Positions 32,630 to 59,859 of a DNA stretch of 64,000 bases are shown here, piece by piece. The translations under genes were made by a program, and so were the position numbers. Source of the DNA: Phycisphaerae bacterium. Lineage in GTDB: Bacteria > Planctomycetota > Phycisphaerae > UBA1845 > Fen-1342. The stretch is taken from assembly GCA_022072445.1 (NCBI GenBank), contig JAJVHV010000003.1, forward strand, positions 259,204 through 323,203, given 5' to 3'. How positions within the stretch are numbered: position 1 is the stretch's first letter; each line of letters starts with the position of its first letter. The notes under the pieces are model-generated. The model saw nothing but the letters and a program-made list of their open reading frames with translations. It searched no databases and was not told where the DNA came from.

Positions 32630-32719
32630 GAACGTGCAGCGGTCCGGCGTGACTCCTGGACGAGCGCGTCTCCGGCACCCCGTCAGCGCGCCACACCACC
32701 GCTCAGGCGGTTGCGATGC

Positions 32720-33262
32720 TCACAACCGCCCACGTTCGTGAATCGACGGCTCGCCGACAATCGGCACAACTCTCTCCTCCAGCAGAATCGGCTTCTGCGA
32801 GCGAGGCACGACGAAAATCCCGAAGGGCGTCACGGCGTCAGCGGTCGCCTGCGTCTGATACGTTATCAGGCGGTAGCGAAACCGCAGTGCGTCGGCTTCG
32901 TCGACGATCGCGTCCGCGACGATCGCGTCAACGTTCGAACCGCTGCCGGCGAAAATCGCGATGACCATATACTTCTCAAAGTCGATCTCCGGCACCCGCG
33001 GTCCGTGCTCGCGCTTTTCGAGCCAGTCCGGCTTGTGGCGCGTCCAGAGCGCCTCCCACTCTTTCGCTGATGTAACGCGAAATTGCCCGCTCGCCGTGAT
33101 ATGACTCTGCTTCCCAGACCAGGCCACAACCGGGCGGACGGGCCGGCCCTCCGTCCGAGTCGCCTGCCGGTCCTGCCCATGGCCGACCGAAACTGTAACC
33201 ACCAGCGCCGACAAGACGCCAGCGAGCAGACGGGCCCGCGAATGCGTGGCTGATGGAATCAT
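32720..33262 (-). CDS. small secreted protein of unknown function
   Basis: Secreted protein of 180 aa. The ATG at 33262 has AGGAG; the signal peptide is about residues 8-30 (ARLLAGVLSALVVTVSVGHG). The core has KEWEALWTRH, EIDFEKYMVIAIFAG, then a long strand pair and PFGIFVVPRS. This layout recalls PrcB-type protease-complex domains, but I would not assign it on that alone. It lies 50 bp before the thioredoxin-like gene's end and on the same strand, downstream of it. Confidence 0.65.
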   Translation of the reverse strand: MIPSATHSRARLLAGVLSALVVTVSVGHGQDRQATRTEGRPVRPVVAWSGKQSHITASGQFRVTSAKEWEALWTRHKPDWLEKREHGPRVPEIDFEKYMVIAIFAGSGSNVDAIVADAIVDEADALRFRYRLITYQTQATADAVTPFGIFVVPRSQKPILLEERVVPIVGEPSIHERGRL

Positions 33263-33312
33263 GCCGTTCTCCTGGGCGACTTCTGCATTCGTCATTCCGC
33301 ATCGCCGTTACT

Positions 33313-34131
33313 TTACGGCTCGCCGCCCAGCACGCGCTTGGCATACTCGACGTGGTCGGAATCGGCGTCCTTCAGCTCTACCAGCTTCTTCGCCGCCTCC
33401 TTGGCCTTCTCTGTGTTCTGAGCCGACATGTGGCAAGCGACGATCGACACTAGCGCGTAAGACCGCACCTTGCTGCTCATTTTCTCCGACGCCGCCCGCG
33501 CAAAAAACCCGACGGCCTTGTCGAACGAGCCAAGGTTCTGATAGTGGTCTCCAATCGCGTTGCACGCTTCACCCACCGTGTCGCCCGACGCGCCCGCTTT
33601 CTCCGCCTTCGCCAGGGCCGCCTCCGCCCCGGCAATGTCGCCGCGCATCCCCAGAATCGCCGCCACTTTGGCATTCGCCGCCGGATCGTCCGGATTCTTC
33701 GCCAGCGTTTCGCGCGCCTTGGCCAGGTCCGTCACCGACTGTGCGATCTTCGTCATCTCCGCCGCAAACGGCTCCGGTTTCATGTACCCGCCGATCCTGC
33801 CCACCACGTCGCCGTTGGCCTGCACGAACAGGATCGTCGGATAACCCTGCACGCCATACTTCACCGCCTGCTCCTTGCCCTCCTTCTCGGCGTTGAGCTT
33901 GACGCAGGCGAACTGGGCCGCGAGCTTGATGACCTTCTCGTCGGTGTAGGTGTCCTTGTCCAGTTTCTTGCACCATCCGCACCAGTCGGTATAGAAGTCC
34001 ACCATGATCAGCTTGTTGGACTTCTCCGCGTCGGACTTGGCCGCTTGCCAGTCCTTCGCCCACGGCAGGTCGCCGGCATGAACCGTGGCCGCGCACAGCA
34101 GCGTCGTGGCTGCAAACATGAGCTTTTGCAT
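33313..34131 (-). CDS. periplasmic thioredoxin-like protein with TPR tail
   Basis: Protein of 272 aa with signal peptide MQKLMFAATTLLCAATVHA. A thioredoxin-fold domain holds the redox motif C51-G-W-C54 in DFYTDWCGWCKKLD and the cis-Pro segment GYPTILFVQ. A C-terminal helical TPR-like region follows (AAILGMRGDIAGAEAAL, NAIGDHYQNLGSFDKAVGFF). Expected in the periplasm as a disulfide reductase or isomerase; CGWC is typical of the DsbD-gamma/thioredoxin_7 group. The ATG at 34131 has CGGAG upstream. Confidence 0.85.
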   Translation of the reverse strand: MQKLMFAATTLLCAATVHAGDLPWAKDWQAAKSDAEKSNKLIMVDFYTDWCGWCKKLDKDTYTDEKVIKLAAQFACVKLNAEKEGKEQAVKYGVQGYPTILFVQANGDVVGRIGGYMKPEPFAAEMTKIAQSVTDLAKARETLAKNPDDPAANAKVAAILGMRGDIAGAEAALAKAEKAGASGDTVGEACNAIGDHYQNLGSFDKAVGFFARAASEKMSSKVRSYALVSIVACHMSAQNTEKAKEAAKKLVELKDADSDHVEYAKRVLGGEP

Positions 34132-34262
34132 GTTCAAATCTCCGTACTGCGCGGGGTCATCGTGTCGGGTTGGCTGCGCAGCTATCCAGATAGTACCCGC
34201 CCCGCCCGGGGGGGCAATCGTGTCCCCAGCGTCCCGCCGGCGTCAGAGGCTGAGAATCTCTC

Positions 34263-34328
34263 GGGTGGAGCGGGCATTCTGCCCGCGGTTGTGCCGCCAG
34301 ACGGCAGGCAGGATGCCCGCCGCACCCC
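34263..34328 (+). repeat. dispersed GCGGGCAT-GCCCGC element, copy 1
   Basis: Begins GGGTGGAGCGGGCATTCTGC and ends GCAGGATGCCCGCCGCACCC, so the ends are inverse to one another around a variable centre. A second copy lies at 43838-43912 and a half copy at 58020-58043. Confidence 0.72.
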
Positions 34329-34355
34329 AACCGTTTTCAGCCTCACAGGGGCGAC

Positions 34356-35768
34356 ATGAACCGGCTGCTGGATTTCCTGCGCGTCGACGACATCCCGCGG
34401 ATGTCGCGCCGGAATTACCTCTACGAACGCCGCCACGTGCTCATCTGGGGCATGTTCGCCGGCATGGTGGAGGGAAATACCGCCAGCATCGTCGCCGCCA
34501 AGACCTTCGACGGCTCGCCGCTGCTGGTGACTGCCGTCTGGACCACCCCCATGGTCGCCAACATGTTGACGATCATCTGGGGCGTCCTGGCCCGCGGCCG
34601 CTCAAAAGTCCGGCTGATGACGACGCTCGGCCTGGCCGCCGCCTTCTTTGTCGCCTCGATCACGTTCACACCGAACAGTCCGGCGGCATGCGGCTGGCTC
34701 TTCGCCGCCCAGTTGCTGATGGCCCGCATCTTCCTCGCGGGTGTCGTCACGCTCCGCAGCAGCTTGTGGCAGGCCAACTACCCTGAATCGCACCGCGCCC
34801 GCATCGCCGGCCGCATCCAGCGGCTTCGCGCCCTGATGGCCCTGCTTGTCGTCGCCTCCGCCAGCGCGCTGTTCGATTGGGACCCCTCCTTCTACCGCTA
34901 CGTCTACCCCGCCGCCGCCCTGCTCGGCGCCGCCGCCGTCGTCCTTCTGCAGCGCATCCGCGTCCGCGGCGAGAAGCGCGAGATCGCCGACTATCGCCGG
35001 CAGTCGGCCGGCCACGCGGCCGGCGCGGGCCGCACGTTCCGGTCGGGACTGAGCGAGGCGGTCGGCATCCTGCGGGACGATCGCGAGTTCGCGCGCTACT
35101 GCACCGCGCAATTCTGCCTGGGCTCGGCCAACTTCATGGTCGATCCCGTCCTGGCGTTCGTCGTCACGCGCCAGCTCGGCCTGAGCTACTTCGTCTCCAG
35201 CGCGCTGCTCGACCAGATCCCCGTCATCTTTCTGCTCCTCTCCATCCCCTACTGGGCGGCCTACTTCGACCGCGCCGGCGTCCTCCAGTTCCGCGTCATC
35301 AACAGCGCCGTCTGGGTCGTCAGCTTCGTCATCTCCGCGATCGCGATCGCGCTGGTGCAGTTCGGCGGAATGCCAGTCTCAGCCGACCCCGCGAGCCCCG
35401 GGCCCGTCCGCTACGTGGGACCGTGGGTCACGGCCGCCGTCGTGCTGCTCTTCGTCGCCAGGCCGCTCAGCGGCCTGGGCAGCGGCGGCGGATCGATCGC
35501 CTGGAACCTCGGACACCTGCACTTCGCCGGCCGACACAACGCCGAAATCTACATGGCCATCCACGTCTCGCTCACCGGCCTGCGCGGCATCATCATGCCC
35601 TTCGTCGGCAAGTTCGCCTATCAGCTCAGCGGCAGCGGCTCGTTCGTCGCCGCCGCGGCACTGGGCGTCGCGTCGCTCTTCCAGTTCCGCCGCCTGGCGC
35701 GCGATGCGCTGCGCCGGCCGCCCGATCAGCCCTGCCCCGCCGGCCAGTCCGGCAGTTCGACGTCATAG
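34356..35768 (+). CDS. MFS-type transporter
   Basis: Membrane protein of 470 aa with about twelve hydrophobic segments. The N-terminus HVLIWGMFAGMVEGNTASI and the central basic loop (RIRVRGEKREIADYRRQ) fit a major-facilitator fold of a planctomycete-type family. The substrate is not deducible. The ATG at 34356 follows AGGGGCGAC. Its last 43 nt overlap the end of serA, which runs in the opposite direction. Confidence 0.75.
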   Translation: MNRLLDFLRVDDIPRMSRRNYLYERRHVLIWGMFAGMVEGNTASIVAAKTFDGSPLLVTAVWTTPMVANMLTIIWGVLARGRSKVRLMTTLGLAAAFFVASITFTPNSPAACGWLFAAQLLMARIFLAGVVTLRSSLWQANYPESHRARIAGRIQRLRALMALLVVASASALFDWDPSFYRYVYPAAALLGAAAVVLLQRIRVRGEKREIADYRRQSAGHAAGAGRTFRSGLSEAVGILRDDREFARYCTAQFCLGSANFMVDPVLAFVVTRQLGLSYFVSSALLDQIPVIFLLLSIPYWAAYFDRAGVLQFRVINSAVWVVSFVISAIAIALVQFGGMPVSADPASPGPVRYVGPWVTAAVVLLFVARPLSGLGSGGGSIAWNLGHLHFAGRHNAEIYMAIHVSLTGLRGIIMPFVGKFAYQLSGSGSFVAAAALGVASLFQFRRLARDALRRPPDQPCPAGQSGSSTS

Positions 35769-45222: not shown

Positions 45223-46131
45223 ATGAAGCAATTATTGACCACCAAGCAGGTTGCCCGCGCCATCGGCGTCAGCGAAGCGTCCGTCAAACGCTGGTGCGAC
45301 AAGGGCGCGGTTCCGTGCGCCCGTACTGCCGGCGGCCATCGGCGGCTGACGCTTTGCGGCATCATCGAGTTCCTCCGCCGGAACGGCCACGAACTGGTGG
45401 AGCCCGAAGTGCTGGGCCTGCCGGCCGACACCGGCCGCCGCGAATGCGCGGTGGAGCGTTGCGCCAAGGCGTTTCATCGTTCGCTGGTCGCGGCTGACGA
45501 GCAGCACATGCGGCGCATGATTTACGACCTGTACCTAGCGGGGCGCACTTTCCGGGAAATCATGGACCGGCACCTCGCGCCCGCCGTCCGCGCCCTGGGC
45601 GAATGCTGGGCACACGGGGAGCTGGAGGTCTTTGAGGAACGCCGGGCGGTCGAGATGGCGCTGCGGGCGGTGTATGAGATGCGCTGCATTCTCGGACCGG
45701 TCTGCAATGAAGCGCCGGTTGCGATCGGCGCGTCGCTGGAGCACGACCCGTACACCCTGCCGACCGCGATGGTCGAGGTGACCATGCGCGAGCTGGGCTG
45801 GCGGGCGCAGTCGGTCGGCGCGGGGCTGCCGGCGGCAACGATCGCCACAGCCGTGCGGCGGGCACGTCCGAAAATCTGCTGGTTGAGTGTGTCGACCTTT
45901 CCGGACCTCGCGCGGTTCGTGGGAGACTACGCGATCGTCGCGGACGCGGCGCGCGGCTGCGGCTCGGCGATGGTCGTCGGGGGGCGGGCAATGAACGACG
46001 AGACCCGGCACGCGATCCGCTATGCCGCCTATTGCGACGCGCTCGGGCACCTGGTGGCATTCGCGGAGACGATTTATCAGAGAAGCGCGGCGTGCGTGGA
46101 TGCGGCGCTGCCGGATCGTGCAGTCTCGTAG
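45223..46131 (+). CDS. CarH/LitR-like MerR-type regulator, B12-binding residues lost
   Basis: Transcription factor of 302 aa. The N-terminal MerR/excisionase-type helix-turn-helix is TTKQVARAIGVSEASVKRWC and GGHRRLTLCGIIEF. A helical B12-binding cap (about residues 85-165) and a Rossmann-like cobalamin-binding domain follow. In CarH photoreceptors the cap carries W-x9-E-H. Here it reads W129-x9-E139-R140, and the Rossmann domain lacks the DxHxxG cobalt-ligand motif (it has EHDPYTL). It therefore probably no longer uses adenosylcobalamin as a light sensor. No carotenoid genes lie nearby, and its target is unknown. Confidence 0.82.
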   Translation: MKQLLTTKQVARAIGVSEASVKRWCDKGAVPCARTAGGHRRLTLCGIIEFLRRNGHELVEPEVLGLPADTGRRECAVERCAKAFHRSLVAADEQHMRRMIYDLYLAGRTFREIMDRHLAPAVRALGECWAHGELEVFEERRAVEMALRAVYEMRCILGPVCNEAPVAIGASLEHDPYTLPTAMVEVTMRELGWRAQSVGAGLPAATIATAVRRARPKICWLSVSTFPDLARFVGDYAIVADAARGCGSAMVVGGRAMNDETRHAIRYAAYCDALGHLVAFAETIYQRSAACVDAALPDRAVS

Positions 46132-46134
46132 CGC

Positions 46135-47139
46135 TTATTGGTCGTTCGGATGCGGAGCAAACAGAGCGCGGCGCAAGCGCTCGACGCGCCACCAGACCCA
46201 TATCCACACTGCCAAGGCAAAGAGCTGCGGCGCGAGAAATACGCCCCACTCCGCCGCGCTGATGAACCACCCCGACCACGTTGCGGCGAAGCTGGCGCGT
46301 TGCACGAGAGCGGTCAGCATGCTGAGGAGCAGGGCCAGGATCGGCGCAGCGACGATGAGCATGTGCGCCAGGCGTGTGCCGCCCGCTCCGCGCGCGATGC
46401 GGTCGCCGTCCTGATCGCTGAGCAGCGTGATCAGCAGCAGACAGGCGCAGACGGCTTCGAGCGGGCCGGCGATCGCGGCGCCGACGGCGAATCCCGGCAG
46501 CAGGCTCGCCAGCAGCAGCAAGCCGGCGACGAGCATGCCGGCGACGGCGTAGTGCCAGCCGAGCGTCTGCTCCTTGCCGCGGCCGGCAATCATGCACGCC
46601 CAGCCGCCGGCGCCGGCCGTCGCGATCGCCGCCAGCGGCGCGACGCCGGGGAGTATCCAGAGTTTGAGGATCAGACAGGCCCGAATCAACCAGAGCACGC
46701 GCTCGACGCGCCGCTGCTCCGCGCCTCCGAACCAGCGCTCCAACATCGCCCGGGCGTGCGCCTGGCCGCACTCGGGACAGCGGAATCCGCTGTGCTCCTC
46801 GAGGCGGTAGCCGCACGAGAGGCAGCGGAAGTGCGATTTGTCGTCGGCCGGCGGCGCGGGCGCAGACGGCCGGCGGGCCGTGGCGGCAGGCTGGGGCGAA
46901 CCCGGGGACGGCGGCGGCGCGACGCGCGACGAACCGCGGCTGTCTGACGGCACCGGGGTAGATCCATTCGCCGAGGCGGTGGGTGCGGCCGAGGCGGGCG
47001 CCGCGGGCGCGGGTTGCGGCATGGCGGCCGAAGCGGGACTGGCCGTTCGAGGCGGCGGCGTCGGGCGCGGCTCGGCGTCGGCGCTGAGGCGGTCAAGCGC
47101 GTTGATCAGGTCGCGATCGGGTTTGTCCGCGGACGTCAT
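46135..47139 (-). CDS. zinc-ribbon membrane protein
   Basis: Protein of 334 aa. A Pro/Ala-rich disordered N-terminus (about 100 residues) is followed by a zinc ribbon (FRCLSCGYRLEEHSGFRCPE, ending CGQ) with four Cys. About six transmembrane helices lie in the C-terminal half. The function is unknown; similar ribbon-plus-helix proteins are frequent in planctomycetes. The ATG at 47139 overlaps the stop of the upstream gene as ATGA (47139-47136), so it is co-translated with the alkaline-phosphatase-superfamily/TPR lipoprotein. Confidence 0.75.
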   Translation of the reverse strand: MTSADKPDRDLINALDRLSADAEPRPTPPPRTASPASAAMPQPAPAAPASAAPTASANGSTPVPSDSRGSSRVAPPPSPGSPQPAATARRPSAPAPPADDKSHFRCLSCGYRLEEHSGFRCPECGQAHARAMLERWFGGAEQRRVERVLWLIRACLILKLWILPGVAPLAAIATAGAGGWACMIAGRGKEQTLGWHYAVAGMLVAGLLLLASLLPGFAVGAAIAGPLEAVCACLLLITLLSDQDGDRIARGAGGTRLAHMLIVAAPILALLLSMLTALVQRASFAATWSGWFISAAEWGVFLAPQLFALAVWIWVWWRVERLRRALFAPHPNDQ

Positions 47140-49679
47140 GGCGGCGATGACTCCAGGCGGAAGGGTTTGCGCTGGGCGTAGAGCGCTCGCCGGCCGGCGA
47201 GCCGCTCGCGCAGCGCGCTGTCGCCCGACTCTCCCGCCAGCCGCAACGCTTCGTCGAGCGTGCTGAGGGCGTCGTCGAAGCTGCCGGCGGCGGCTTGAGC
47301 GGCGGCCAGCGTATCGAGCACCTGCGGGGTCGAACCGGCGATGCGGCGGGCCTCCTGAGCATGCTGGAGGGCGGCGGCGGGATCGCGGAACGCATCGTCT
47401 GGGCAGACCGCCAGCAGCCAGCCGAGATTGTTGTGCAACGAGGAATCTTCGGGCAGCGCCTCGACGCCGCGCTTCAGTGCCGCGATGGCCTGCTCGAACT
47501 GGCGAAGCTCGATCAGCGTGTCGGCGAGTGCGTCCCAACCGCCGGGAACGCGCGGGTTGAGCCGCAGGGCCTCGTTCAGCTCGGGCAGTGCGTCGGCGGG
47601 CCGGCTCAGGCGGCGCAGCGCGTCGGCGATCCGCACGCGCGTGATCGGGACGTTGGGCGCCAAACGCCGCGACAGCTCCAGTTCGCGGAGCGCCTCGTCG
47701 GGTTTGCCGAGCAGCAGGAGCACTTCGCCGCACTGCCGGCGGATGGGTGCGCCGTCGGGGGCGAGCTCGACGGCCCTGGCGAGTTCGGCCCGGGCGGCGG
47801 GTTCATCGTTGCGGCGGGCGAGGATTTCGGCGATCTGGACGTGAGCGAGCGGGAGATTCGGGTCGAGCCGCAGAGCCTGGCGGTTGTGCTCCAGCGCGGC
47901 ATCGAGGTCGCCTCGGCCGGCCAGCAGCCGCGCCAGAAAGACGTGCGACTGGGCGAAGACCGGCGGCACGTCGATCGCGGCGCGATAGTGCTGCTCGGCC
48001 TCGTCGATCTGGCCGAGCATTTCGAGCGTCAGGCCGAGATTGGTGAGCGTCCGACCGTCGCGCGGGTTGGAGCGCAGCGCGACGCGAAAGTGCTCGGCGG
48101 CCTCGCTGAGCTTGCCGCGCGACCAGAGGATGTTGCCGAGATTGGCGTGCGCCCAGGCGAACGAACCCCCCTGCTCGCCGGTCTGCGCGAGAATCTGACG
48201 GAGCGTGGCTTCGGCGGTGCGCATGTCGCCGGTGCGCATCAGCCACATGGCGTGGCTGGTGAGTCGAATCTCGTCGGCGCGGTCCATCGGGTTGATGCCG
48301 ACGGGTTCGAAGAGCGCCATTTCGCCGGCGCTGTCGGAGGGCTGCGAGGCGGCGTCGCCGCCCGAGGCATAGCCCAGCGCGCCGAGCGCCTGCTGGGCCG
48401 CCGGCGTGACGGCGAGGCGCGCCGATCCAGCAGCGCGGACCGGCGGCGACTGCTCGATCAGGGCGCGGAGCGCGGCGCGCATTTCGGCGACGCGTGCAGG
48501 CTGTCCCGCGGCCACGTCGGCCACTTCGCCGGCATCGGAGGCGACGAGGTACAGCTCGGGCCGCGGCGCGTGGATGTACTTCCAGCCGCCACCGCGGAGC
48601 ATGCGCAGGGCGGCGTAGCCGTAGTTGTAGAACCCATAGAGCGATTCGCCATAGGCCGTCAGGCCGGGATCGGCGGCGCCGTCGCGCGTGGCCGGTAGAA
48701 GCGACACGCCATTGGCACCGGACAGCGGGTCGCCGCCGAGAAAGTCGAGAATGGTGGGCGCGATGTCGGCGGTGCGCACTTGCCAGGGAATCCGGCGGCC
48801 AGCGGGCAAATGGCCCGGTCGCCACAGGACGAGCGGCACGCGCATCGTGGTGTCGTAGATGAACGCGGAGTGTGTCTCCTCGTTGTGTTCAAACAGTCCC
48901 TCGCCGTGGTCGGCGGTGACGACGACGAGCGTGCGGTCCAGCACGCCACGCCGCTGGAGCGCGTCGAGGATGCGTCCGATCTGGGCGTCGACGTAGGCGA
49001 TTTCGGCCAGGTATGGATCGCGCTGCCGGGCGGCCCACTCGGCAGGCGCTTCCCAGGGGCGATGCGGGTCGAAGAAGTGGACGAAATGGAAGAAGGGCCC
49101 GGCCGCGTCGCGCGCGATCGACTCGATCGCGCTGTCGGCGACCTCAGCGGCCGGCCGCTCGACGAACGCCTGGCGGGTCGAGGCGCGGGCCCGGTCGCGG
49201 GCGGTTTGAATGTCGTTGTAGACCTCGAAGCCCTGGTTCAATCCGAACTCGCGATTGAGCACGAAGGCGGCGATTTCGGCCGCGGTCGCATAGCCGCGGG
49301 CATGCAGCACCTCGGCCAGCGACTCGTTTTCGGCACGAAGCTGGAAGCTGCCGTTGTCGCGCACACCGTGCACGAACGGCCACGTGCCGCACAGCATCGT
49401 GGCGTGCGAGGGCAGCGTGATGGGGACGGCGGAGCTGCACTGCTCGAAGAGCACGCCCTCGCGCGCCAGGCGGTCAATGTGCGGCGTGGGGTCGCCGGCC
49501 TGGCCGTAGCAGCCCAGGCGGTCGGCGCGGGTGGTGTCGAGCGAGATCAGCAGCACGTTCATGCCTTCGCCACGCCGCGGCAGGTCGGGCACGCGGCTGC
49601 ACCCGGCGGCGGCGATCGCCCCCAGGGCGCACAGTCCGCGCAGCAGTCGTATGCCGTGATCGTGGCGCTGAAGTCGCAT
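47136..49679 (-). CDS. alkaline-phosphatase-superfamily (sulfatase-like) lipoprotein with TPR tail
   Basis: Protein of 847 aa. The ATG at 49679 opens a lipoprotein signal with lipobox AIAAAGC. The catalytic domain (to about residue 400) has the metal-binding LLISLDTTRADRLGCYG and VVTADHGEGLFEH. The nucleophile position, where sulfatases have C/S-x-P-S-R, reads T88-L-P-S-H. A formylglycine cannot form there, so a sulfatase is unlikely. Thr nucleophiles occur in phosphodiesterase and phosphoethanolamine- or phosphoglycerol-transferase members. The second half is about ten TPRs. Expected as a periplasm-facing lipoprotein acting on an envelope polymer. It overlaps the zinc-ribbon gene by 4 nt. 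Confidence 0.85.
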   Translation of the reverse strand: MRLQRHDHGIRLLRGLCALGAIAAAGCSRVPDLPRRGEGMNVLLISLDTTRADRLGCYGQAGDPTPHIDRLAREGVLFEQCSSAVPITLPSHATMLCGTWPFVHGVRDNGSFQLRAENESLAEVLHARGYATAAEIAAFVLNREFGLNQGFEVYNDIQTARDRARASTRQAFVERPAAEVADSAIESIARDAAGPFFHFVHFFDPHRPWEAPAEWAARQRDPYLAEIAYVDAQIGRILDALQRRGVLDRTLVVVTADHGEGLFEHNEETHSAFIYDTTMRVPLVLWRPGHLPAGRRIPWQVRTADIAPTILDFLGGDPLSGANGVSLLPATRDGAADPGLTAYGESLYGFYNYGYAALRMLRGGGWKYIHAPRPELYLVASDAGEVADVAAGQPARVAEMRAALRALIEQSPPVRAAGSARLAVTPAAQQALGALGYASGGDAASQPSDSAGEMALFEPVGINPMDRADEIRLTSHAMWLMRTGDMRTAEATLRQILAQTGEQGGSFAWAHANLGNILWSRGKLSEAAEHFRVALRSNPRDGRTLTNLGLTLEMLGQIDEAEQHYRAAIDVPPVFAQSHVFLARLLAGRGDLDAALEHNRQALRLDPNLPLAHVQIAEILARRNDEPAARAELARAVELAPDGAPIRRQCGEVLLLLGKPDEALRELELSRRLAPNVPITRVRIADALRRLSRPADALPELNEALRLNPRVPGGWDALADTLIELRQFEQAIAALKRGVEALPEDSSLHNNLGWLLAVCPDDAFRDPAAALQHAQEARRIAGSTPQVLDTLAAAQAAAGSFDDALSTLDEALRLAGESGDSALRERLAGRRALYAQRKPFRLESSPP

Positions 49680-49829
49680 GCCGGCCTTTCGAACGGACGA
49701 CGCACTCGCGTCATGAGTGGGACAAGGATACACGACGGGCGGCCGGTTCAGCGCTTGGGTCTCGGGCGCGGCACCGATGGAGACGATCGGCGCCGCAACG
49801 TCGGGCTGGAGGGTGAACTCTGGGCGGGC

Positions 49830-49852
49830 AGCGCCTTACGGTCGCGGCTCGG
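49830..49852 (-). repeat. GCCGCGACCGTAAGG repeat supplying a stop codon
   Basis: GCCGAGCCGCGACCGTAAGG on the minus strand provides the last residues (AEPRP) and the TAA of the NHL lipoprotein gene. It is related to the repeat inside acs and to the inverted repeat at 58050-58183. Confidence 0.65.
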
Positions 49853-51026
49853 CGGGGCGCGGTTCGCGCAGATACTGGAATACCTGAATACGTCGGTTGT
49901 ACGTGTCGGCGATCCAGATGCGGTCGGCGTCGTCGATGCAGATTCCCGACGGCAGCGAGAATTCGCCCGCTCGACGGCCCGGCCCGCCGAACGCCAGCAG
50001 CAGGCGGCCGGCGGCGTCGAAGACTTGCACATTCTCAAACTGGCTGTCGAGCACGTAGACGTGGCCGTCGGAGTCGACCGCGACGTCGCGCGGCAGCGAG
50101 AAATCGCCGGCGGCGTCGCCCTTGCGGCCAAACGCGTTGCCGCCGGAGTCATCGGCGGCGATGACTTGAACGCGAAAGTTCATCGCGTCGGCAACCAGCA
50201 GTCGCGGCGGCAAGCCGCCAATCGGGCCGGCGGCGCCGCTGAGGGCGATCCCGGCGGGGAAGTTGAACTCGCCGACGGCGTCGCCGCGCCGCCCGATCCG
50301 TCGCAGCACCCGGCCCTCGGGGCTGAACGCGACGCAAGTGTGCGCCGCCGCGTCCAGCACCCAGAGTGCAGCGCCGGCTTCGTCCCAGGTGACGGCGGCG
50401 GGGCGCGTCAACTCGCCGTGGCCGATCGAGCGCCGGAGCTGGCCGTCCCAGCCGAACAGCAGCAACTCGGCCCGCCGCGCGTCGACCACGGCGACGCCGG
50501 CGTCGGCGACGGCGACGTCGACGGGCGCCATCAGCGGCCGGTCGGAGGCGATGCGAATCGGCGACATGGTGCGGCGGCTCAGATCGAGCACATAAACGGC
50601 CGGACCGCCCGGGGCGCCGGGGTCGGCGACGGCGACGCGCGGCCAACGGGCGGCAACCGCGGCCGGGGTCACGAGGCGCTGCCGCGGCGGCGGACCTTCG
50701 ACGATGGCGCCGAGCGAGGACCAGAAATCGGGCGTGACGCCCAGCGAGTCTTCGCCGACCAGCTCACCGACGTAGCGGATGCGGGGCGTATCGGGCGGCG
50801 GGGGCCAGACCAGTGGCGGTTCGAAGTCGGGAAAAATCTCGCGCCGCGCGGCGTGGCAACCAATCACCATTGTGAGCAGCAGCGCGAGGAACGAGGTGGC
50901 GGCGGGCAGGCGGGCAGGCGTACGAGATGGGAATCTCGCGCGAGCGGCCGGCCCACCACTGGCGTGGTGGGTTCGGATCAGACCGGCACGTCCGTCCATC
51001 CGCGGCGATCGAGTCTCAGGGCTCAT
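49836..51026 (-). CDS. NHL-repeat lipoprotein
   Basis: About 396 aa. The ATG at 51026 overlaps the end of the barrel gene by 11 nt. The N-terminal leader contains a lipobox (LLLTMVIGC) after an Arg-rich stretch partly encoded by a palindromic repeat (50930-50945). The body is a six-bladed NHL propeller: GEFNFPAGIALSG, GDFSLPRDVAVDSDGHVYVLDS, GEFSLPSGICIDDADRIWIADT, each ending in R-x-Q-V. It ends PAEPRP and TAA within a dispersed repeat. NHL proteins are often found beside multiheme cytochromes and outer-membrane barrels. With the barrel gene upstream and the tetraheme gene divergent, a role in the same envelope complex is likely. Confidence 0.85.
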   Translation of the reverse strand: MSPETRSPRMDGRAGLIRTHHASGGPAARARFPSRTPARLPAATSFLALLLTMVIGCHAARREIFPDFEPPLVWPPPPDTPRIRYVGELVGEDSLGVTPDFWSSLGAIVEGPPPRQRLVTPAAVAARWPRVAVADPGAPGGPAVYVLDLSRRTMSPIRIASDRPLMAPVDVAVADAGVAVVDARRAELLLFGWDGQLRRSIGHGELTRPAAVTWDEAGAALWVLDAAAHTCVAFSPEGRVLRRIGRRGDAVGEFNFPAGIALSGAAGPIGGLPPRLLVADAMNFRVQVIAADDSGGNAFGRKGDAAGDFSLPRDVAVDSDGHVYVLDSQFENVQVFDAAGRLLLAFGGPGRRAGEFSLPSGICIDDADRIWIADTYNRRIQVFQYLREPRPAEPRP

Positions 51027-53130
51027 GGCGCGCCACAAGCGGGATTTCGCGGCGGAGCTTGATCCACGCCGCCGCGCTGCCGTCGCTTGAATCGGCCAGG
51101 TCGAGCAGCTTGTACTCGACTTCGAGCAGCGCGGTGAACAGCCCGATGCGCCAGTTGAGCGACGCGCTGACGTCGACGCCGTGGGTGATGCCGTACAGCT
51201 CGTCGTCTTCATAGCGGTAGAGGCCGGTGGCGACGGCCTCGATGCGCGGGGCGAGGGCGTAGCGATAGGTGAGGCCGGCGTCGAAGAGCGAGGTGGTCCG
51301 CGCGCCGAGGTCGTTGGTGCCTTCGAAGTTCAGGAATGAGAAGCGCGTCGTTCCGCCGAGCGACTGCTGGCCGTCTTCGAAGAAGGTGCAGTCGGCGTTG
51401 AGGTGCAGGCCCTGATAGGGGTCGATGGAGTCGTCGTTGAATTCGTATTCGCTGCTGGCGGACCAGCGCGGCTGGCGGTAGGCGAGGCCGGCGCGATGGC
51501 GGTTTACGCGGCGCGGCTCGAACGTGCGGAAGCGGGTCCGGTCGATGTCTTCGTCCTGGATCGAACCGGCGTAATAGGGCGTCCAGCCGCTGGTGAAGCG
51601 CTGCTCGACGCGCACGTCGACGCGATCGCGATTCAGCTCGAGGCCCTGCGAGGTGCGGTAGGTGTAGCTGACGAGCACAGTCTGATTGTCGACGATGCGG
51701 CCGGTCGGGACGCGGCGGATCGACGTGTAGCGGCCGACGCGCGTGATGACGTAGTCGCGGACGGGGAAGTAGGTGACGCGGCGGGTGCCATCGGTGACCA
51801 GGATGCTGATCGGCACGACGTCGGTGCGGGCCAGGAAGACGGGCAGCGGGTCTTTCAGCGTGACCGACTCGCCCATGACGACGCCGTTGCTGCCGCTGTC
51901 GTCGGCGCGCGAGTGGGTGTGGGTGTAGGTGGCGGTGGAGGAGAATCGGCCGAGGCTGTTGTCGCGATTGAACCAGAGGCTGCCGATGGCGCCCCACTCG
52001 TTCGAGTCGCCGCCGCGCTCGAGCTCCTGGCGCAGGCCGTAGAGGTCGGCGGAGCTGCCGAGGTTTTCGCAGGGCTGATGGGTGAGGCCGGCGTCGGCGC
52101 GGAAGATCTCGTGCTCGACGCCCTCGAACTCCTCGCGCAGGTACTGCCCGCGGTAGCGTGTGGCGAGCTGGTCGGTGTGCTGGAGGCGCAGTTGCGGGGC
52201 GAACTCGGCCATGTCGCGGGCCAGGTCGCCGCTCTCGTCCTGGAAGCGGGCGAGCGTGTCGAAGCGGCTGCGATGGTCCGATCCGAACTGCACGACGTGG
52301 TTGAGCGTGAGGTAGTTTCGGACCGTGTCGAAACGCGTGTCGGTGCCGGAAAACTGCTCGCGGCGGTCGTTGTACTCGTAATCGAGCCGCAGCGAGTGAT
52401 ACTGCGTCGGCTGCCAGGTGGCTTCGTAGCGCAGCTCGCGCGCACCGCGCTGCTCGTCTTCGTAGCGCTGCCGCGACGTTCCGTCGAGCGACTCGAACGT
52501 GTCCTCGAAGCTGAGCCGCATGGGCAGCACGCGGTCGTTGAAGAGCAAGCTGGCGCCGTAGCGCTCGCGGCGGCGGTCGAGGCTGGGCAGAAACGGGCGC
52601 GAGACGCGATCGTCGAGCTGCGACGCGAGCACGTCGATGGTGACCTTGCCGGCCGGCAGCAGCGTCAGCCGCGTGTCGTACTGGAGCAGGAAGCCGTCGG
52701 GGCTGTCGCGGCGATCGAGCCCTGCGCGGGTCTCGTGGTAATAGTCCTGATGCCAGCCGGTGCGGACGTCGAAGCGGTAAGTCGCGAAGCGCTCGTCGAC
52801 CAGCGTGCCCTCGCCGTGCGCTCCGACGGTTTCCTCGAAGCTACGCGCGCTGTTGGTCTGACGATCGCGGAACGGGTAGCCGGAGCGCGCGTCCTGGATC
52901 ACCTGCCGCCGGCGCCACTCGGCGTCGAAACCCAGGTCGAAGGTCAGCTCGTCGAAGGCGACGAGCGGCCGGCCCGCGCGGGCGCTGGCCGGCAGTTCTC
53001 CGGCGGCGGGCGACGACGCTGGTTGCGACGAGGGGCTCTGGGCGGCAGCGATGGTAGACAGCGCGCTGCACAGGCCGACGGTCAGCGCCGCGCCGATGCA
53101 CCCGCTCTTCCAAGACCGTCGCTGGTCCAT
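51016..53130 (-). CDS. outer-membrane beta-barrel protein
   Basis: Protein of 704 aa with a signal peptide (residues about 10-30, GCIGAALTVGLCSALSTIAA). The mature part is almost entirely amphipathic beta strands with alternating aromatic residues and Arg/Asp/Glu loops (FATYRFDVRTGWHQDYYHE, TAT YTHTH, LNWRIGLFTALLEVEYKLL). This is the pattern of a large barrel of perhaps 22-28 strands. The last strand is followed by LRREIPLVARHEP. No TonB box or plug is evident. Size and neighbours (NHL lipoprotein, divergent tetraheme cytochrome) fit the porin of a porin-cytochrome conduit, but there is no direct sequence match that I can name. Confidence 0.75.
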   Translation of the reverse strand: MDQRRSWKSGCIGAALTVGLCSALSTIAAAQSPSSQPASSPAAGELPASARAGRPLVAFDELTFDLGFDAEWRRRQVIQDARSGYPFRDRQTNSARSFEETVGAHGEGTLVDERFATYRFDVRTGWHQDYYHETRAGLDRRDSPDGFLLQYDTRLTLLPAGKVTIDVLASQLDDRVSRPFLPSLDRRRERYGASLLFNDRVLPMRLSFEDTFESLDGTSRQRYEDEQRGARELRYEATWQPTQYHSLRLDYEYNDRREQFSGTDTRFDTVRNYLTLNHVVQFGSDHRSRFDTLARFQDESGDLARDMAEFAPQLRLQHTDQLATRYRGQYLREEFEGVEHEIFRADAGLTHQPCENLGSSADLYGLRQELERGGDSNEWGAIGSLWFNRDNSLGRFSSTATYTHTHSRADDSGSNGVVMGESVTLKDPLPVFLARTDVVPISILVTDGTRRVTYFPVRDYVITRVGRYTSIRRVPTGRIVDNQTVLVSYTYRTSQGLELNRDRVDVRVEQRFTSGWTPYYAGSIQDEDIDRTRFRTFEPRRVNRHRAGLAYRQPRWSASSEYEFNDDSIDPYQGLHLNADCTFFEDGQQSLGGTTRFSFLNFEGTNDLGARTTSLFDAGLTYRYALAPRIEAVATGLYRYEDDELYGITHGVDVSASLNWRIGLFTALLEVEYKLLDLADSSDGSAAAWIKLRREIPLVARHEP

Positions 53131-53380
53131 TTCTTGACGCCGCCGCGCCGGCGGGCAGAGATTTTAAGTGAGGTGTCGGGCAGGCCCGGCACGGTTGACA
53201 CGGGCATCGGGGCACAGCTTGCGACTCGCCGCCGCGCCGCGACTCATCATGCTGCGTGAAGTTACGCAGGCGGCCCGCATCCGTCCAGCGTGAATCGGAC
53301 GTTGTGAGGATTCGCCGCCATTGCCGGTCTGTGGATGCGTCCGTATGATGCGGTTCATATTCACTGCTCGAGTGCGCCTG

Positions 53381-54052
53381 ATGCGAGCCGCTGACAAGCA
53401 AACGACGGGCCAGTCGCACGCGCGTCGTGCTGCCTGGCTCCTCGCCATCGCGGCCGGCGGCGCGCTGTTTGCCTTTGCCGCCGCGGCGCGCGACCCGGAC
53501 CTCCCTCCGTCGCAATCCGACGTTTCGCGCGAACCGATGACGCTGGGCTTGCGCGGCAGCAAGCACGATTTTTCCGACAGCGCCCGCGAGCCGCGCGACC
53601 TGTGCCTGCCCTGCCACACGCCGCACATCACTGCTTCGCAGGCACCGCTGATCGTGCGCCGGGCGGCGACCACGCAGCCGCTCCGGCCGTACCAGACGGG
53701 TATCGGCGGGCTGGATGAGTCGTCGCTGCTCTGCCTGGGCTGTCACGACGGCGTGGCGGCGCCCGACGTGTACGCGGGTGCGCATGGTCTGCGATGGTCG
53801 GATCGAACGGGCGCGCCGGGCGGGCTGGGCCGACGGCGGCTGACGAGCCACCCGGTCGGCATCGAATACCCCGCGGCGGACGCCAAGTATCATCCGGCGG
53901 CCGTCGTCACCGGCACCGCCGGGTTGAAGCTGCCGCACGGCCGGATTCAGTGCACGACCTGCCACGATCCGCACAACACGAGGCGTAACGCGGGGATGCT
54001 TGTGATCTCGAACGACGGCAGCCGGCTGTGCCTCTCGTGCCACCGGCTCTGA
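53381..54052 (+). CDS. tetraheme cytochrome c (doubled CXXCH)
   Basis: About 223 aa. A signal or anchor segment (RRAAWLLAIAAGGALFAFAA) is followed by four heme-attachment motifs CLPCH, CLGCH, CTTCH and CLSCH. They occur as two pairs, the doubled-CXXCH layout, with histidines between (HDFSDS, GAHGLRW, TSHPVGI, DPHN) as possible distal ligands. Expected in the periplasm as an electron carrier. The start is uncertain: ATGs at 53345, 53348 and 53381 are possible and none has a clear ribosome site. It is divergent from the barrel gene and convergent with the Ser/Thr kinase gene, 7 bp away. Confidence 0.88.
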   Translation: MRAADKQTTGQSHARRAAWLLAIAAGGALFAFAAAARDPDLPPSQSDVSREPMTLGLRGSKHDFSDSAREPRDLCLPCHTPHITASQAPLIVRRAATTQPLRPYQTGIGGLDESSLLCLGCHDGVAAPDVYAGAHGLRWSDRTGAPGGLGRRRLTSHPVGIEYPAADAKYHPAAVVTGTAGLKLPHGRIQCTTCHDPHNTRRNAGMLVISNDGSRLCLSCHRL

Positions 54053-54059: not shown

Positions 54060-57000
54060 CTACGGGGCGTTGGGCTGGGCCTGGGACGTGGCCGGCTGTG
54101 TCGATGCGATCAGGGCGGCGAGCTGCGCGCGGCGCGACTCGGCCAGCGCGGCGCGGCCCTGACGCTCCGCGATCGCCAGCAGCCGCTCGAGCACGCGCTG
54201 CCGCTCGCGGAGCGACGTGTCGGGGTCGCCGGACATGGTGTGCTCGGCCTGCCGCAGCAGGATTTCCGCCTCGTCCAACATCCCGAGTTCGATCAGGCAG
54301 CGGCCCAGCGCGGAGGCCGCGAACGCGGTCCGCCGGTCGCTGTCGCCCAGCGTGCCGCGGCGGATGGCGAGGGCTTCGCGCAGGAGCGGCTCGGCCTGCT
54401 CGCTGTTTCCCTGGCGGATGTGCACGTCGGCCAGCTCGATCATCGGGCCGGTCGTCTCGGGGCTGCGTTCGCCGAGCGTCTTGCGGCGGATGCGCAGCGC
54501 GGATTCGAAGAGGGCCTGTGCCTCGTCGAGCTGCCCCATGTCGGTGAGAAGCTGTCCGACGCTGCTGTAGGCGGTCGACGTCGAGGCGTGTTCGGGCCCC
54601 ATGACGCGTTCGAAGCGGCGGATGACGTCGCGGCCGAGGTTGAGGGCTTCGTCGCGATGTCCCTGGTCGCGTAGCACGCACATCAGGTTGTGCATGGTGA
54701 TCAGCGTGTCGGGCTGGTTCGCGCCGACGGCGCGTTTTCCGGCTTCGAGCGCATCGCGATAGAGGACTTCGGCTTCGGCGAGCCGGTCGAGGCTGTGCAG
54801 GGCGGTGGCCAGTGAGTTGGTCGCGATGATGGTCTCGGGGTGGTCGCCACCCAGCACGCGGCGCGCGTCGTCGAGCGACTGCCGCAGCAGCTCCACGGCT
54901 TCGCCGGACTTTCCACTCGACTTGAGATAGTTCGCCAGGTTCGTGCGGGCGGAGATCGTGTCCTGGTGGTCGGGGCCGTATCGCTCGCTGCTCATCGAGA
55001 GCACGCGGCGTTGCGTCTCGATGGCCTCGGCGTGCTGCCCGAGCCGCGAGAGCGCCTGCGCCAGCCCGCGGAGACTCATGATCTCCCCGTCGCGCTGATC
55101 GCCCTGCAAGGCGTGCGTGGCCGCGTAAGCCTGGCGCCACATCGGCAGCGCCTCGCGGAAGTTTCCGAGGTTGCGGCTGCAGTCGGCGGCGATGCGCAGG
55201 GCCGTCGCGTAGTTGGGGTGCTGTTCTCCAAACACGCGTCCGATCTCGGCGACCAGCCCGCGCACCACGGGTTCGGCCTCCCGATAACGGTTGCGCGACA
55301 TCTGCATGCTGGCCAGGTTCATCCGCGCGACGAGCGTGTCCGGGTCGCTGGCGCCATGCACCCGCTCTCCGACCTCGACCGCCTCGCGGTAAAGCGGCTC
55401 GGCCTCATCGTAGCGCTTCTGATAATGCAGCAGGACGGCCAGGCTGTTGATGACCAGCAGCGTGTGGTTGTCGCCATCGCCGTCGAGCCGCCGGGCGAGT
55501 GTCAGCAGTTCGCGGTAGATGGCCTCGGCCTCGTCGTATTTTTTCTGCTCGGAGAGCGTCAGCGCCAGATCGGCCTGCAGGCCGCGCGTGCGGCTGCTTT
55601 CGGGCCCCAGGTCGCGTGTCGCGGCCGCGATCGCTTCGCGCAGCCCGGTCTCGGCGCGCGGCAGCTCGTTGCGGGCCCGGGCGATCGACGCCGCCGCGCC
55701 GCGCACCTGCGCGATCTGGTCGCCATGCGGCTCGTGCGCCTCGAGCAGTTCGCGGGCCCGTGTCAGGTGCGGCTCGGCCTCGTCGAGCATGCCCATCGAT
55801 GTAAAGATGCGCCCGACCACGGTGCGCACGCCGGCCTCGACCTCCGGCTCGCTGCTCAAGCCCCGCCCGACTTTGCCGGCGGCGCTCTGCAACACCTGCG
55901 ACACGGTCGCGTTGCGGCCCGCGGCCTTCACGTCGGCCGAACCGAGCATGTCGAGCAGAAACTCGTTGATCGCCGCGGCCCGCCGGCCGCTCACCTCGGC
56001 GGCCCGCTGGCTTTTCTCGGCGATGCGGGTCTGCTCCTCGGCGCGAAGCTGGTTCTCGCGGGCCGTCTCCTGCGCCCGCTCGGCACGGAACCGCTGCGCC
56101 GCCTCCGCCCGCAGGGCCGTCTCGGCGTCGCCGCGGGCGCGGCTGGCCTGAACCATCCCATAGAGCGACGCCGTGAGCCCCAGCAGGAGCGCCGTCAGCA
56201 CACCGGCCGCCGCCCCCAGCAGGACGCGATGCCGCCGCGCGAATCGGCTGAACTGGTACGCCAGCGTCGGCGGCCGCGCCGCGACCGGCCGCCCCTCCAG
56301 GTATCGCCGCAAGTCGTCGGCCAGGGCCGCAACCGAGTCGTAACGCCGGACGCGCTCCTTCTCGATCGCCTTCATTACGATCCAGTCCAGGTCGCCGCGC
56401 AGCACACTGCGCAGCCGATCCGGCTCCGTGCCGCGGGCCGCGGAAATCTCCGCGACGCTGCGGCGCGGCCGGTGCGGCGAGCGCGGGGGCGACTGCGACG
56501 AGCTGCCCGGCAGCGTGAGCTCCTCGGAGCTGACGCTGGCCGGCCGCGCGGGCCGCGAGCCCTTCGGCTCGGTCAGCCGCGTGCTGGGCCGCGGCGGGAG
56601 GGTCGCGCGGATCACCTGACTCACGCCCGCGACTCCCGCGCTGCGCAGCGCCATGCCATCGACCGGCAGCTCGCCGCACAGCAGCTCATAGAGCACCACG
56701 CCCAGCGAGTACACATCCGTCCGCGTGTCGATGTCCAGGCTCGCTTCGGCCTGCTCGGGGCTCATGTACTCCGGCGTTCCGATCATGCGCCCCACCGCCG
56801 TGTACAGCGTCTGTCCGCGGTGTGGGTCGGCGGTCGCCTTGGCCACGCCGAAGTCGATCACCTTGGGCGTCGGATGGTCGTTGATCAGCGTAACCAGCAG
56901 ATTGCTGGGCTTGAGATCGCGATGGATGATGCCGCGTTGATGCGCGTGCTGGATCGCGCCGCACACGTCCAGAAAAATCTCCAGCCGGGCGCAGATCGAA

Positions 57001-57404
57001 TGCCGCCCCGAGTCGCAAAACTGATTGATCGGCGTGCCGGCGACGTGCTCCATCACGAAGTAGGGCCGGCCGGTCTCGGTCGCGCCGGCGTCGTAGACAG
57101 CCGCCACGTTGGGATGGCTCATCAGCGCCAGCGTCTGGCGCTCGACGTCAAAGCGGGCCACAACCTCGCGCGTGTCCATCCCCAGCTTGATCAGCTTCAG
57201 CGCCACGCGCCGCCGAACCGGCTCGCGCTGCTCGGCCAGATACACCACCCCCATCCCGCCCTGGCCGAGCACGTCCAGGATGCGATACCGCCCGATCTGC
57301 TGCGGACGATCGTCCGCGTCCCACGACCCCGGCGGCCCGCCCGACGCCCGCGTGGGCGGCGCGTGGTCGTGTCCGGACGGAGTTGTCGCGTCGAGGTCGC
57401 TCAT
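54060..57404 (-). CDS. membrane Ser/Thr protein kinase with C-terminal TPR array
   Basis: Protein of 1114 aa. The N-terminal Hanks-type kinase has the Gly loop LGQGGMGVVYLA, Lys in VALKLIK, catalytic HRDLKPSN, DFGVAKAT and the APE-equivalent TPEYMSPEQ. A Ser/Pro-rich linker and the RRYDSVAALADDLRRYLEG motif typical of planctomycete kinases follow. A transmembrane helix at about 400-420 (RVLLGAAAGVLTALLLGLTASLYG) precedes a coiled coil and about twelve TPRs of the kinesin-light-chain type (A..Y...L...RR.LG..HP.T). The kinase faces the cytoplasm and the TPRs should lie outside it, making this a transmembrane signalling receptor with unknown ligand. Confidence 0.92.
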   Translation of the reverse strand: MSDLDATTPSGHDHAPPTRASGGPPGSWDADDRPQQIGRYRILDVLGQGGMGVVYLAEQREPVRRRVALKLIKLGMDTREVVARFDVERQTLALMSHPNVAAVYDAGATETGRPYFVMEHVAGTPINQFCDSGRHSICARLEIFLDVCGAIQHAHQRGIIHRDLKPSNLLVTLINDHPTPKVIDFGVAKATADPHRGQTLYTAVGRMIGTPEYMSPEQAEASLDIDTRTDVYSLGVVLYELLCGELPVDGMALRSAGVAGVSQVIRATLPPRPSTRLTEPKGSRPARPASVSSEELTLPGSSSQSPPRSPHRPRRSVAEISAARGTEPDRLRSVLRGDLDWIVMKAIEKERVRRYDSVAALADDLRRYLEGRPVAARPPTLAYQFSRFARRHRVLLGAAAGVLTALLLGLTASLYGMVQASRARGDAETALRAEAAQRFRAERAQETARENQLRAEEQTRIAEKSQRAAEVSGRRAAAINEFLLDMLGSADVKAAGRNATVSQVLQSAAGKVGRGLSSEPEVEAGVRTVVGRIFTSMGMLDEAEPHLTRARELLEAHEPHGDQIAQVRGAAASIARARNELPRAETGLREAIAAATRDLGPESSRTRGLQADLALTLSEQKKYDEAEAIYRELLTLARRLDGDGDNHTLLVINSLAVLLHYQKRYDEAEPLYREAVEVGERVHGASDPDTLVARMNLASMQMSRNRYREAEPVVRGLVAEIGRVFGEQHPNYATALRIAADCSRNLGNFREALPMWRQAYAATHALQGDQRDGEIMSLRGLAQALSRLGQHAEAIETQRRVLSMSSERYGPDHQDTISARTNLANYLKSSGKSGEAVELLRQSLDDARRVLGGDHPETIIATNSLATALHSLDRLAEAEVLYRDALEAGKRAVGANQPDTLITMHNLMCVLRDQGHRDEALNLGRDVIRRFERVMGPEHASTSTAYSSVGQLLTDMGQLDEAQALFESALRIRRKTLGERSPETTGPMIELADVHIRQGNSEQAEPLLREALAIRRGTLGDSDRRTAFAASALGRCLIELGMLDEAEILLRQAEHTMSGDPDTSLRERQRVLERLLAIAERQGRAALAESRRAQLAALIASTQPATSQAQPNAP

Positions 57405-58049: not shown

Positions 58050-58183
58050 GCTCCCAGCCGAGCCCCGACCGTGAGGGAGGGGTTCGACGTCGAGTTGCTA
58101 TCGAACTTGGTGCTGAACTTCGCCGAGTTCGTTGGCGACCGCTGTTCGAACCCCTCCCGCACGGTCGGGGCTCGGCTGGGAGC
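58050..58183. repeat. 38-bp inverted repeat, palindromic element
   Basis: The left arm 58050-58087 begins GCTCCCAGCCGAGCCCCGAC and contains GTGAGGGAGGGG. The right arm 58146-58183 ends GGTCGGGGCTCGGCTGGGAG. The arms are complementary over 38 positions with one mismatch, and 58 bases lie between. It sits 57-190 bp upstream of the NUDIX gene start and upstream of aroDE on the other strand. It has no coding capacity and is probably a MITE- or REP-pair-like element. Confidence 0.8.
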
Positions 58184-58296
58184 GCCACCGCGGGTGGGGT
58201 ATCGCGCGCCATCACGGGCGGGCCGTCGCAATTCGCCCGCGCGACGGCGCCCGGACGGGCTGGGATTCGCACCGCCGCGCCGCCACAATACGCGCC

Positions 58297-59859
58297 ATGA
58301 CGCCCCGCACGCTGCTCGCCGTGCCGATCACAAGTGCCGCCCGGCCGGTCGCCGCGCAAGCCGCCGAGGCCGCGGCGGCGCGGGCCGATCTGATCGAGCT
58401 GCGCGTCGACCTCATCGGCGATTGGCGCGCCGTCGAGACCTACCTCGCCGGTCCGCGCCCGCTGCCGGCCATCCTGACCATCCGGCCGCGGCGCGAGGGC
58501 GGCGGCTGGGACGCCGACGAAAACGAGCGGATCAGCCTGATGGAACGGCTCGGCCTGCATCTGCCGGGGTTCATCGACGTGGAGTGGTCGACCTGGAGCG
58601 CCTCGGCCAACGTGCGCCAGAAGCTCGGCCTGGTCTGCGAAACCAGCCCGCCGAGCCCGCACGACCGTCCGCGCAATCGGCTGATTCTCTCGCAGCACGA
58701 TTTCGCCGCCACGCCCGCCAACCTGGGCGCCGTCTTTGACACGCTCGCCTCGCAGCCGTATGCGATCGTCAAAGTGGCCTGCGCTGGCCACGACGCGAGC
58801 GACGCGCTGCACATGCTCGCCGAACTCGCCCGTATCGCCGGCCGTCGGCCGGCGATCGGCCTGACCATGGGCGAGGCCGGCGCCGCGACGCGCGTCCTGG
58901 CGGCGAAGTTCGGCGCTTGTCTGACTTACGCCCCGCTCGAACCGGCCGACGCCTCGGCCCCCGGCCAGCTCACGCTTGCCCAGCTTCGCGCCAGGCGCTT
59001 CCACGATGTCGGCCCGCGGACACGCGTGTACGGTGTCGTCGGCTGGCCCGTCGCCCATTCGCGCAGCCCCGCCCTGCACAACGCCGCCATGAGCGCGGCG
59101 GGCATCGACGGTGTTTACGTGCCGTTTCCCGTCTCGCCGGGCTTCGAGGCGTTTGACCGCTTCATGGTCCGCGCCGCGGCGCAGGAGCTGGATGTCGCCG
59201 GCCTGAGCATCACCATCCCGCACAAGGAAAACGCGCTCCGCTGGCTGCGCGCCAACGGCGGCGCCGTCGATCCGCTCGCGGCGCGGATCGGCGCGGTCAA
59301 CACGCTCTCGCGCGGTGCCGACGGCCGCTGGGACGGCTCGAACACCGACTCACCGGCGGTCATCGCGGCACTCCGGACCTGCGCGACGTGCGCAGGCGAC
59401 GGGTTGCATGAGCAGCGCGTCCTGATTCTCGGCGCCGGCGGTGCGGGTCGCGCCGCGCTCGCCGCACTCACCGAGCGCGGCTGCCCGGTGACCATCTGCA
59501 ATCGCGATCCGGCCCGCGCCGCGCAGCTGGCCGCCGAGTTCGACGCGGCGACCTTGCCCTGGGAGGCTCGCGGCGCGGCGCCCTTCGACATCCTGATCAA
59601 CTGCACCAGCGTCGGACTGTGGCCCGACGTGGACGTCTCGCCGTTCCCGCCGAGCGCTCTGACCTCCGGCCAGGTGGTCTTCGACACGATCTACAATCCG
59701 CCGCGGACGCGCCTGATTCGCGACGCGGCCGCCGCCGGTTGTCACGTTGTGCCCGGTGTCGAGATGTTCATCGCGCAGGCCATGCGGCAGTTCGAGCGCT
59801 GGCACGGCCGACCCGCCGACCGCGAAGTGTGCCGTCGCAGTTTGAAGAGCGCGGAGTGA
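58297..59859 (+). CDS. aroDE: bifunctional 3-dehydroquinate dehydratase / shikimate dehydrogenase
   Basis: Fusion protein of 520 aa covering steps 3 and 4 of the shikimate pathway. The N-terminal class I dehydroquinase (about 1-225) has DLIELRVDL, catalytic His in LILSQHDF and the Schiff-base Lys in AIVKVAC. The C-terminal AroE (about 235-515) has substrate-binding SRSPALHN, catalytic Lys in TIPHKENALR, and NADP-binding GAGGAGRAALAAL. The ATG at 58297 is the first that fits the domain start. The fused arrangement is known in plants, chlamydiae and planctomycetes. Confidence 0.95.
   Translation: MTPRTLLAVPITSAARPVAAQAAEAAAARADLIELRVDLIGDWRAVETYLAGPRPLPAILTIRPRREGGGWDADENERISLMERLGLHLPGFIDVEWSTWSASANVRQKLGLVCETSPPSPHDRPRNRLILSQHDFAATPANLGAVFDTLASQPYAIVKVACAGHDASDALHMLAELARIAGRRPAIGLTMGEAGAATRVLAAKFGACLTYAPLEPADASAPGQLTLAQLRARRFHDVGPRTRVYGVVGWPVAHSRSPALHNAAMSAAGIDGVYVPFPVSPGFEAFDRFMVRAAAQELDVAGLSITIPHKENALRWLRANGGAVDPLAARIGAVNTLSRGADGRWDGSNTDSPAVIAALRTCATCAGDGLHEQRVLILGAGGAGRAALAALTERGCPVTICNRDPARAAQLAAEFDAATLPWEARGAAPFDILINCTSVGLWPDVDVSPFPPSALTSGQVVFDTIYNPPRTRLIRDAAAAGCHVVPGVEMFIAQAMRQFERWHGRPADREVCRRSLKSAE

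Follow-up and report, generated by a model that had tools for sequence, protein, structure and literature searches.

A probable Uet-like porin-cytochrome conduit with an OmcE-family tetraheme cytochrome, spread over three loci of a Phycisphaerae draft genome

Results

Genes at the locus

The window analysed in this study is a stretch of 64,000 nucleotides from a Phycisphaerae draft genome. In this window, we found a gene for a predicted outer-membrane beta-barrel, a gene for an NHL-repeat lipoprotein on the same strand, and a divergent gene for a small multiheme cytochrome (Table 1). The original prediction had claimed a 704-aa barrel, an NHL lipoprotein whose gene shares 11 nt with that of the barrel, and a divergent cytochrome with four CXXCH motifs, and all of these coordinates were confirmed. 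The overlap of the two minus-strand genes is 11 nt when the NHL start is taken at 51026. The lipobox of the NHL protein reads LLTMVIGC (core MVIGC), and the NHL gene lies directly 3′ of the barrel gene in nearly all relatives. Past the NHL gene, about 100 bp are followed by a sulfatase gene, and the undecaheme cytochrome gene of the relatives is absent there.

Table 1. Features of the window locus and of the related loci on contigs C5 and C20 of the same genome
Feature	Position	Strand	Basis or remark
Sulfatase-TPR protein, next gene past NHL; unrelated	47136-49733	-	Pfam
Gap of ~100 bp; the undecaheme gene sits here in relatives	49734-49835	.	Comparison with relative loci
NHL beta-propeller lipoprotein	49836-51026	-	Pfam NHL 6.9e-18; lipobox
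UetC-like porin candidate, predicted 704-aa outer-membrane beta-barrel with signal peptide	51016-53130	-	AlphaFold2 model
Intergenic region flanked by the divergent barrel and tetraheme genes; both promoters presumed inside	53131-53380	.	Gene layout
Secreted tetraheme cytochrome, OmcE family, divergent from barrel	53381-54052	+	Four CXXCH; profile match to OmcE
Ser/Thr kinase-TPR protein, beyond tetraheme; unrelated	54060-57404		Pfam
Undecaheme orthologue	C5:93225-94907	-	Stands alone; 62-72% identity
NHL-octaheme lipoprotein and octaheme partner, together	C20:about 31223-34484		Own genome

In addition, the barrel and tetraheme genes have long spurious ORFs on their opposite strands (51403-53259 on the plus strand and 52841-54043 on the minus strand; GC about 70%). 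Elsewhere in the window, the plus-strand frame at 58132-59859 resembles a fused 3-dehydroquinate dehydratase/shikimate dehydrogenase (AroDE type), and the plus-strand frame at 45223-46131 has an excisionase/MerR-like helix-turn-helix start and an apparent B12-binding-type sensor region.

Predicted fold of the barrel

The AlphaFold2 model of the 704-aa protein was all-strand (mean pLDDT 88.6, pTM 0.77), with about 29-30 long strands according to DSSP, a barrel of about 28-30 strands and a small inserted Ig-like segment at residues ~427-497. For comparison, MtrB has 26 strands. A pore too narrow for the proposed function, which the original prediction had named as an outcome against it, is made unlikely by the predicted strand count. 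In VIA-align, MtrB (6r2q_B) came first (Z 18.0, 444 residues, rmsd 9.9) but was tied with TonB-dependent transporters, and in Foldseek the Cir receptor came first and MtrB (6r2q_B) second. Ushers such as FimD were also among the structural neighbours. The model supports a large outer-membrane barrel, and the fold match leaves MtrB and TonB-dependent transporters unseparated.

The barrel family is present as a single copy in the genome of the window, and 52 of its 53 conserved residues are retained in the window barrel. The curated Pfam search of this protein gave no match, and the Pfam family OMP_b-brl was matched by 4 of 46 relatives. An NCBIfam "tail tube" hit on residues 414-511 scored 26 bits against a cut-off of 60 and was judged meaningless.

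The first place of MtrB in the structural list might suggest that the barrel belongs to the MtrB/PioB or OmbB porin-cytochrome families. However, the window barrel had no MtrB/PioB match in Pfam or NCBIfam, its 46 relatives had no such match in Pfam, the family profile found no match among PDB sequences, and the Z score of MtrB equals that of the unrelated transporters. We consider this assignment highly improbable. As for the porin-cytochrome conduit of the original prediction, its barrel, NHL protein and small cytochrome do appear to be part of such a set, but their placement in the MtrB/PioB or OmbB sequence families was not upheld.

Tetraheme and undecaheme cytochromes

The CXXCH motifs of the tetraheme cytochrome are located at 53603, 53732, 53951 and 54029 of the plus strand, and Pfam Paired_CXXCH_1 was matched at 6.4e-13. 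Although the ORF is open from TTG 53321, the likely start is ATG 53381, which is followed by a Sec-type signal without a lipobox. The family profile matched OmcE of Geobacter (7tfs) across the mature length (E 5e-22) and the 16-chain entry 9yuq (E 2e-25). In the alignment with OmcE, all four CXXCH motifs and all four distal histidines align; among 32 sequences, H72, H167 and H208 are invariant and H92 is nearly so. Thus, the eight ligands needed for four bis-His hemes are available in the tetraheme. The entry 7tfs is OmcE, whose filaments have one inter-subunit heme ligand (PMC12954529, PMC9473688). Judged by these profile matches, the window tetraheme is an OmcE-family cytochrome, and polymerisation is a possibility.

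The original prediction had suggested that the wire may need another cytochrome to be complete, a suggestion that proved well founded, and had proposed a search for further multiheme genes in the genome. This search found an undecaheme cytochrome on contig C5 and an NHL-octaheme protein with an octaheme cytochrome on contig C20. The undecaheme is the protein that normally completes the set; it is present in trans here and is 62-72% identical to those family members that sit in the syntenic position. It has 11 CXXCH motifs and a CX3CH motif that is invariant in all 19 aligned sequences, giving 12 possible hemes. Furthermore, the part with its first four hemes matched OmcE over 200 residues (profile E 6e-44), more strongly than the tetraheme did, and it also matched the tetraheme family directly (hhalign 4e-37, hmmsearch 3e-33). 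Homology to OmcE, as judged by sequence, is shared by the tetraheme and by the N-terminal four-heme part of the undecaheme, which is a new observation here. The idea of the tetraheme as a shortened plug of the barrel has to be given up, since it is a member of the OmcE family; the candidate for the plug is the undecaheme encoded away from the barrel. A test for another OmcE module in tandem, further along the undecaheme, gave no support, and the AlphaFold model of this protein had low confidence (pLDDT 35.8).

Several other multiheme genes were seen in the genome. On contig C8 (161494-164712; L137:6495-9713, minus strand), a 1073-aa protein has about 20 heme motifs behind an NHL propeller and possibly belongs to the same electron system; large multiheme frames resembling it occur in relatives. 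Two multiheme cytochromes of other families, with 8 and 7 CXXCH motifs, are encoded at C4:134889-136883 (L073:7890-9884) and C2:266726-268420 (L072:6727-8421), respectively.

Conservation in relatives

The comparison set included the genome of the window and 60 relatives of the class Phycisphaerae (61 genomes). The barrel family was found in 43 genomes, the undecaheme family in 45 and the tetraheme family in 44. Barrel and undecaheme occurred together in 43 genomes, the barrel alone in none and the undecaheme alone in 2, and both were absent from 16 (Fisher p 8e-13, or 1e-11 when a weak undecaheme match in G018 is discounted). The co-occurrence of barrel and tetraheme was also significant (p 3e-14). 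A barrel match in G114, limited to residues 13-77 (E 5e-4), was left out of account.

In 36 of the 39 barrel loci of the relatives, a cytochrome with 11 CXXCH motifs directly follows the NHL gene, and the tetraheme is close by; two of the three remaining loci lie at contig ends. The public genome set, with MAGs of Phycisphaerae and other Planctomycetota, supplied 55 named loci, and 47 of them show the order barrel-NHL-undecaheme as well. Thus, the conserved neighbourhood does contain the cytochrome, and a neighbourhood lacking it, which the original prediction had named as an outcome against it, did not occur. The NHL protein is a constant part of the gene set, in agreement with the expected link of NHL proteins with conduits. 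A chance neighbourhood of barrel, NHL and tetraheme genes was rejected on the conserved synteny and the co-occurrence statistics.

The arrangement around this core varies. In distant families, barrel, NHL and undecaheme genes are followed on the same strand by the tetraheme gene and a second NHL gene. In the family of the window, the genes for the tetraheme, an NHL-octaheme fusion and an octaheme cytochrome are divergent and lie upstream of the barrel gene. Across the phylum, nine genomes in a sample of 199 had an undecaheme; eight of these nine also had the barrel, and the two genes were adjacent in these eight except in the genome of the window. Thus, the counts from both samples indicate that the system is common in the order of the window and sporadic elsewhere in Planctomycetota.

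Two variants were also observed. At three loci (L120, L126 and L127), which perhaps encode a paralogous conduit, the barrel belongs to a subfamily (about 30% identity) and has a divergent octaheme gene but no undecaheme gene next to it. In L086 (PLA1), one minus-strand ORF 3′ of the undecaheme near the barrel has 20 CXXCH motifs and an NHL region.

Dispersed parts in the genome of the window

In the genome of the window, the parts lie at three loci (Table 1), a split that rests on a draft assembly of 50 contigs. In the maximum-likelihood trees of barrel and undecaheme, this genome pairs with G015 (supports 0.92 and 0.78), and the pairwise distances of the two proteins are correlated over 39 genomes (r = 0.94). 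Thus, the parts appear to have descended together and to have been split later by rearrangement.

The number of contigs leaves some room for an assembly or binning artefact, in which case the genome would really have the usual contiguous cluster. However, the three loci lie inside contigs of 353, 252 and 100 kb amid complete unrelated neighbours, the three pieces have matching tetranucleotide profiles (r 0.98-0.99), and other cluster splits are seen in G008 and G015, which carry the tetraheme and NHL-octaheme genes at a second locus. We regard such an artefact as very unlikely.

An operon without the undecaheme could also mean that the locus in the window is decaying, its barrel, NHL protein and tetraheme no longer cooperating after the undecaheme left. 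However, all genes are intact, and the rate test detected no faster evolution in any part (z -0.8 to -1.4). In addition, 353 of 356 conserved positions over five proteins are kept, and the undecaheme orthologue is retained elsewhere in the genome. Decay is thus hardly probable.

Discussion

We propose that the window contains the barrel, the NHL lipoprotein and the outer tetraheme of a Uet-like porin-cytochrome conduit, which would be completed in trans by the undecaheme on C5 and the NHL-octaheme protein on C20. We give this reading a probability of roughly 0.62. It rests on data obtained directly, namely the genes and their synteny, the nearly all-or-none co-occurrence, the 62-72% identity of the undecaheme, the matching trees, the single barrel with its predicted fold, the constraint on the parts and the homology of the cytochromes to OmcE. 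It is also supported by the same gene set having been reported for Uet (PMC10734462).

The undecaheme electron transfer (Uet) complex (uetABCDEFGHIJ) of Tenderiales and Gallionella, a wire of bacteria that take up electrons from electrodes, is the closest described system, and the likeness is one of gene content. In Gallionella, the Uet cytochromes are an undecaheme with 11-12 motifs, a tetraheme outside the cell and three trihemes, and the other parts are a barrel, two NHL proteins and a prolyl isomerase (PMC10734462). The undecaheme with 11-12 heme motifs (here off the window locus), the tetraheme (UetA), the beta-barrel porin (UetC) and the NHL-repeat proteins (UetHI; here the NHL lipoprotein and the C20 NHL-octaheme protein) are shared. 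Genes for the trihemes UetDEG or the prolyl isomerase UetB were not seen near the loci examined, and rotamase genes are present on C9 and C10. Unlike Uet, the Planctomycetota set has extra NHL-octaheme and octaheme lipoproteins, and the genome of the window spreads the set over three loci.

Other systems are less similar. The MtrCAB complex of Shewanella also has a large outer-membrane barrel whose interior could be filled by a secreted multiheme cytochrome, and the barrels are similar at the level of the fold. However, the set described here has no family-level sequence match to MtrCAB, has different cytochromes and has NHL proteins in place of MtrC. The PCC3 and PCC4 clusters (He et al. 2017) likewise combine a porin with multiheme cytochromes, and PCC4 is present in some Planctomycetes (PMC5566968). 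However, their heme counts and gene content differ, we saw no inner-membrane cytochrome b-like gene here, and NHL proteins, present in the window set, are not mentioned for PCC3/PCC4 (PMC5566968). The tetraheme is similar in size to the OmcE nanowire protein of Geobacter sulfurreducens (PDB 7TFS), with which the N-terminus of the undecaheme also aligns. Unlike OmcE, to which its identity is low, the tetraheme is embedded in a barrel-NHL-undecaheme gene set.

The working of such a conduit may be as follows. The barrel would insulate the undecaheme in the outer membrane, and this cytochrome, with 11 or 12 hemes, would carry electrons through it. The NHL lipoprotein would keep the assembly at the membrane. 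The tetraheme, as a monomer or a filament, may dock on the undecaheme at its OmcE-like N-terminal module and exchange electrons with a partner outside the cell. In the genome of the window, the parts from separate loci would have to meet in trans. The docking, filament formation, direction of electrons and substrate are inferred here.

The main rival to the conduit reading is that barrel and NHL protein form a machine for the secretion or assembly of nanowires. The tetraheme would leave through the barrel and polymerise outside, and the undecaheme would be the base or a periplasmic donor. This idea gains from the tetraheme being an OmcE-family protein, from the ushers among the structural neighbours of the barrel, and from its inserted domain. 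There is also a precedent in Geobacter: in 2025, Shen et al. reportedly proposed that the OmcS-companion (osc) cluster, with channel-like and beta-propeller proteins, serves nanowire secretion or assembly. However, the undecaheme is the part most tightly tied to the barrel, lying directly 3′ in most relatives, which fits a plug better than a cargo, and the tetraheme is found at another locus in G008, G015 and G022. A secretion machine is thus an unlikely explanation, though a serious rival.

Within the conduit reading, the barrel-seated undecaheme may also be the anchor of a nanowire, its OmcE-like N-terminal module acting as the first subunit for polymerising tetrahemes, so that the nanowire would run straight through the outer membrane, with the parts encoded at three loci here. 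This proposal is tentative and rather doubtful at present. The secretion and anchoring of cytochrome nanowires, and their supply with electrons at the outer membrane, have been described as unresolved (PMC12307469). A barrel, an undecaheme with an OmcE-like N-terminus and an OmcE-like tetraheme, co-inherited across one order of Planctomycetota, make a testable candidate for such an anchor.

Furthermore, these results would extend Uet-like conduits to Planctomycetota. The original prediction had called planctomycete versions little described, and this agrees with the literature, in which porin-cytochrome complexes of this phylum are only briefly mentioned, in UBA1845 MAGs (PMC10732223) and in cave MAGs (PMC13264449). 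In the genome of the window, the system would be overlooked by operon-based searches. The finding is of interest chiefly because it may connect the OmcE nanowire family with a conduit in the outer membrane.
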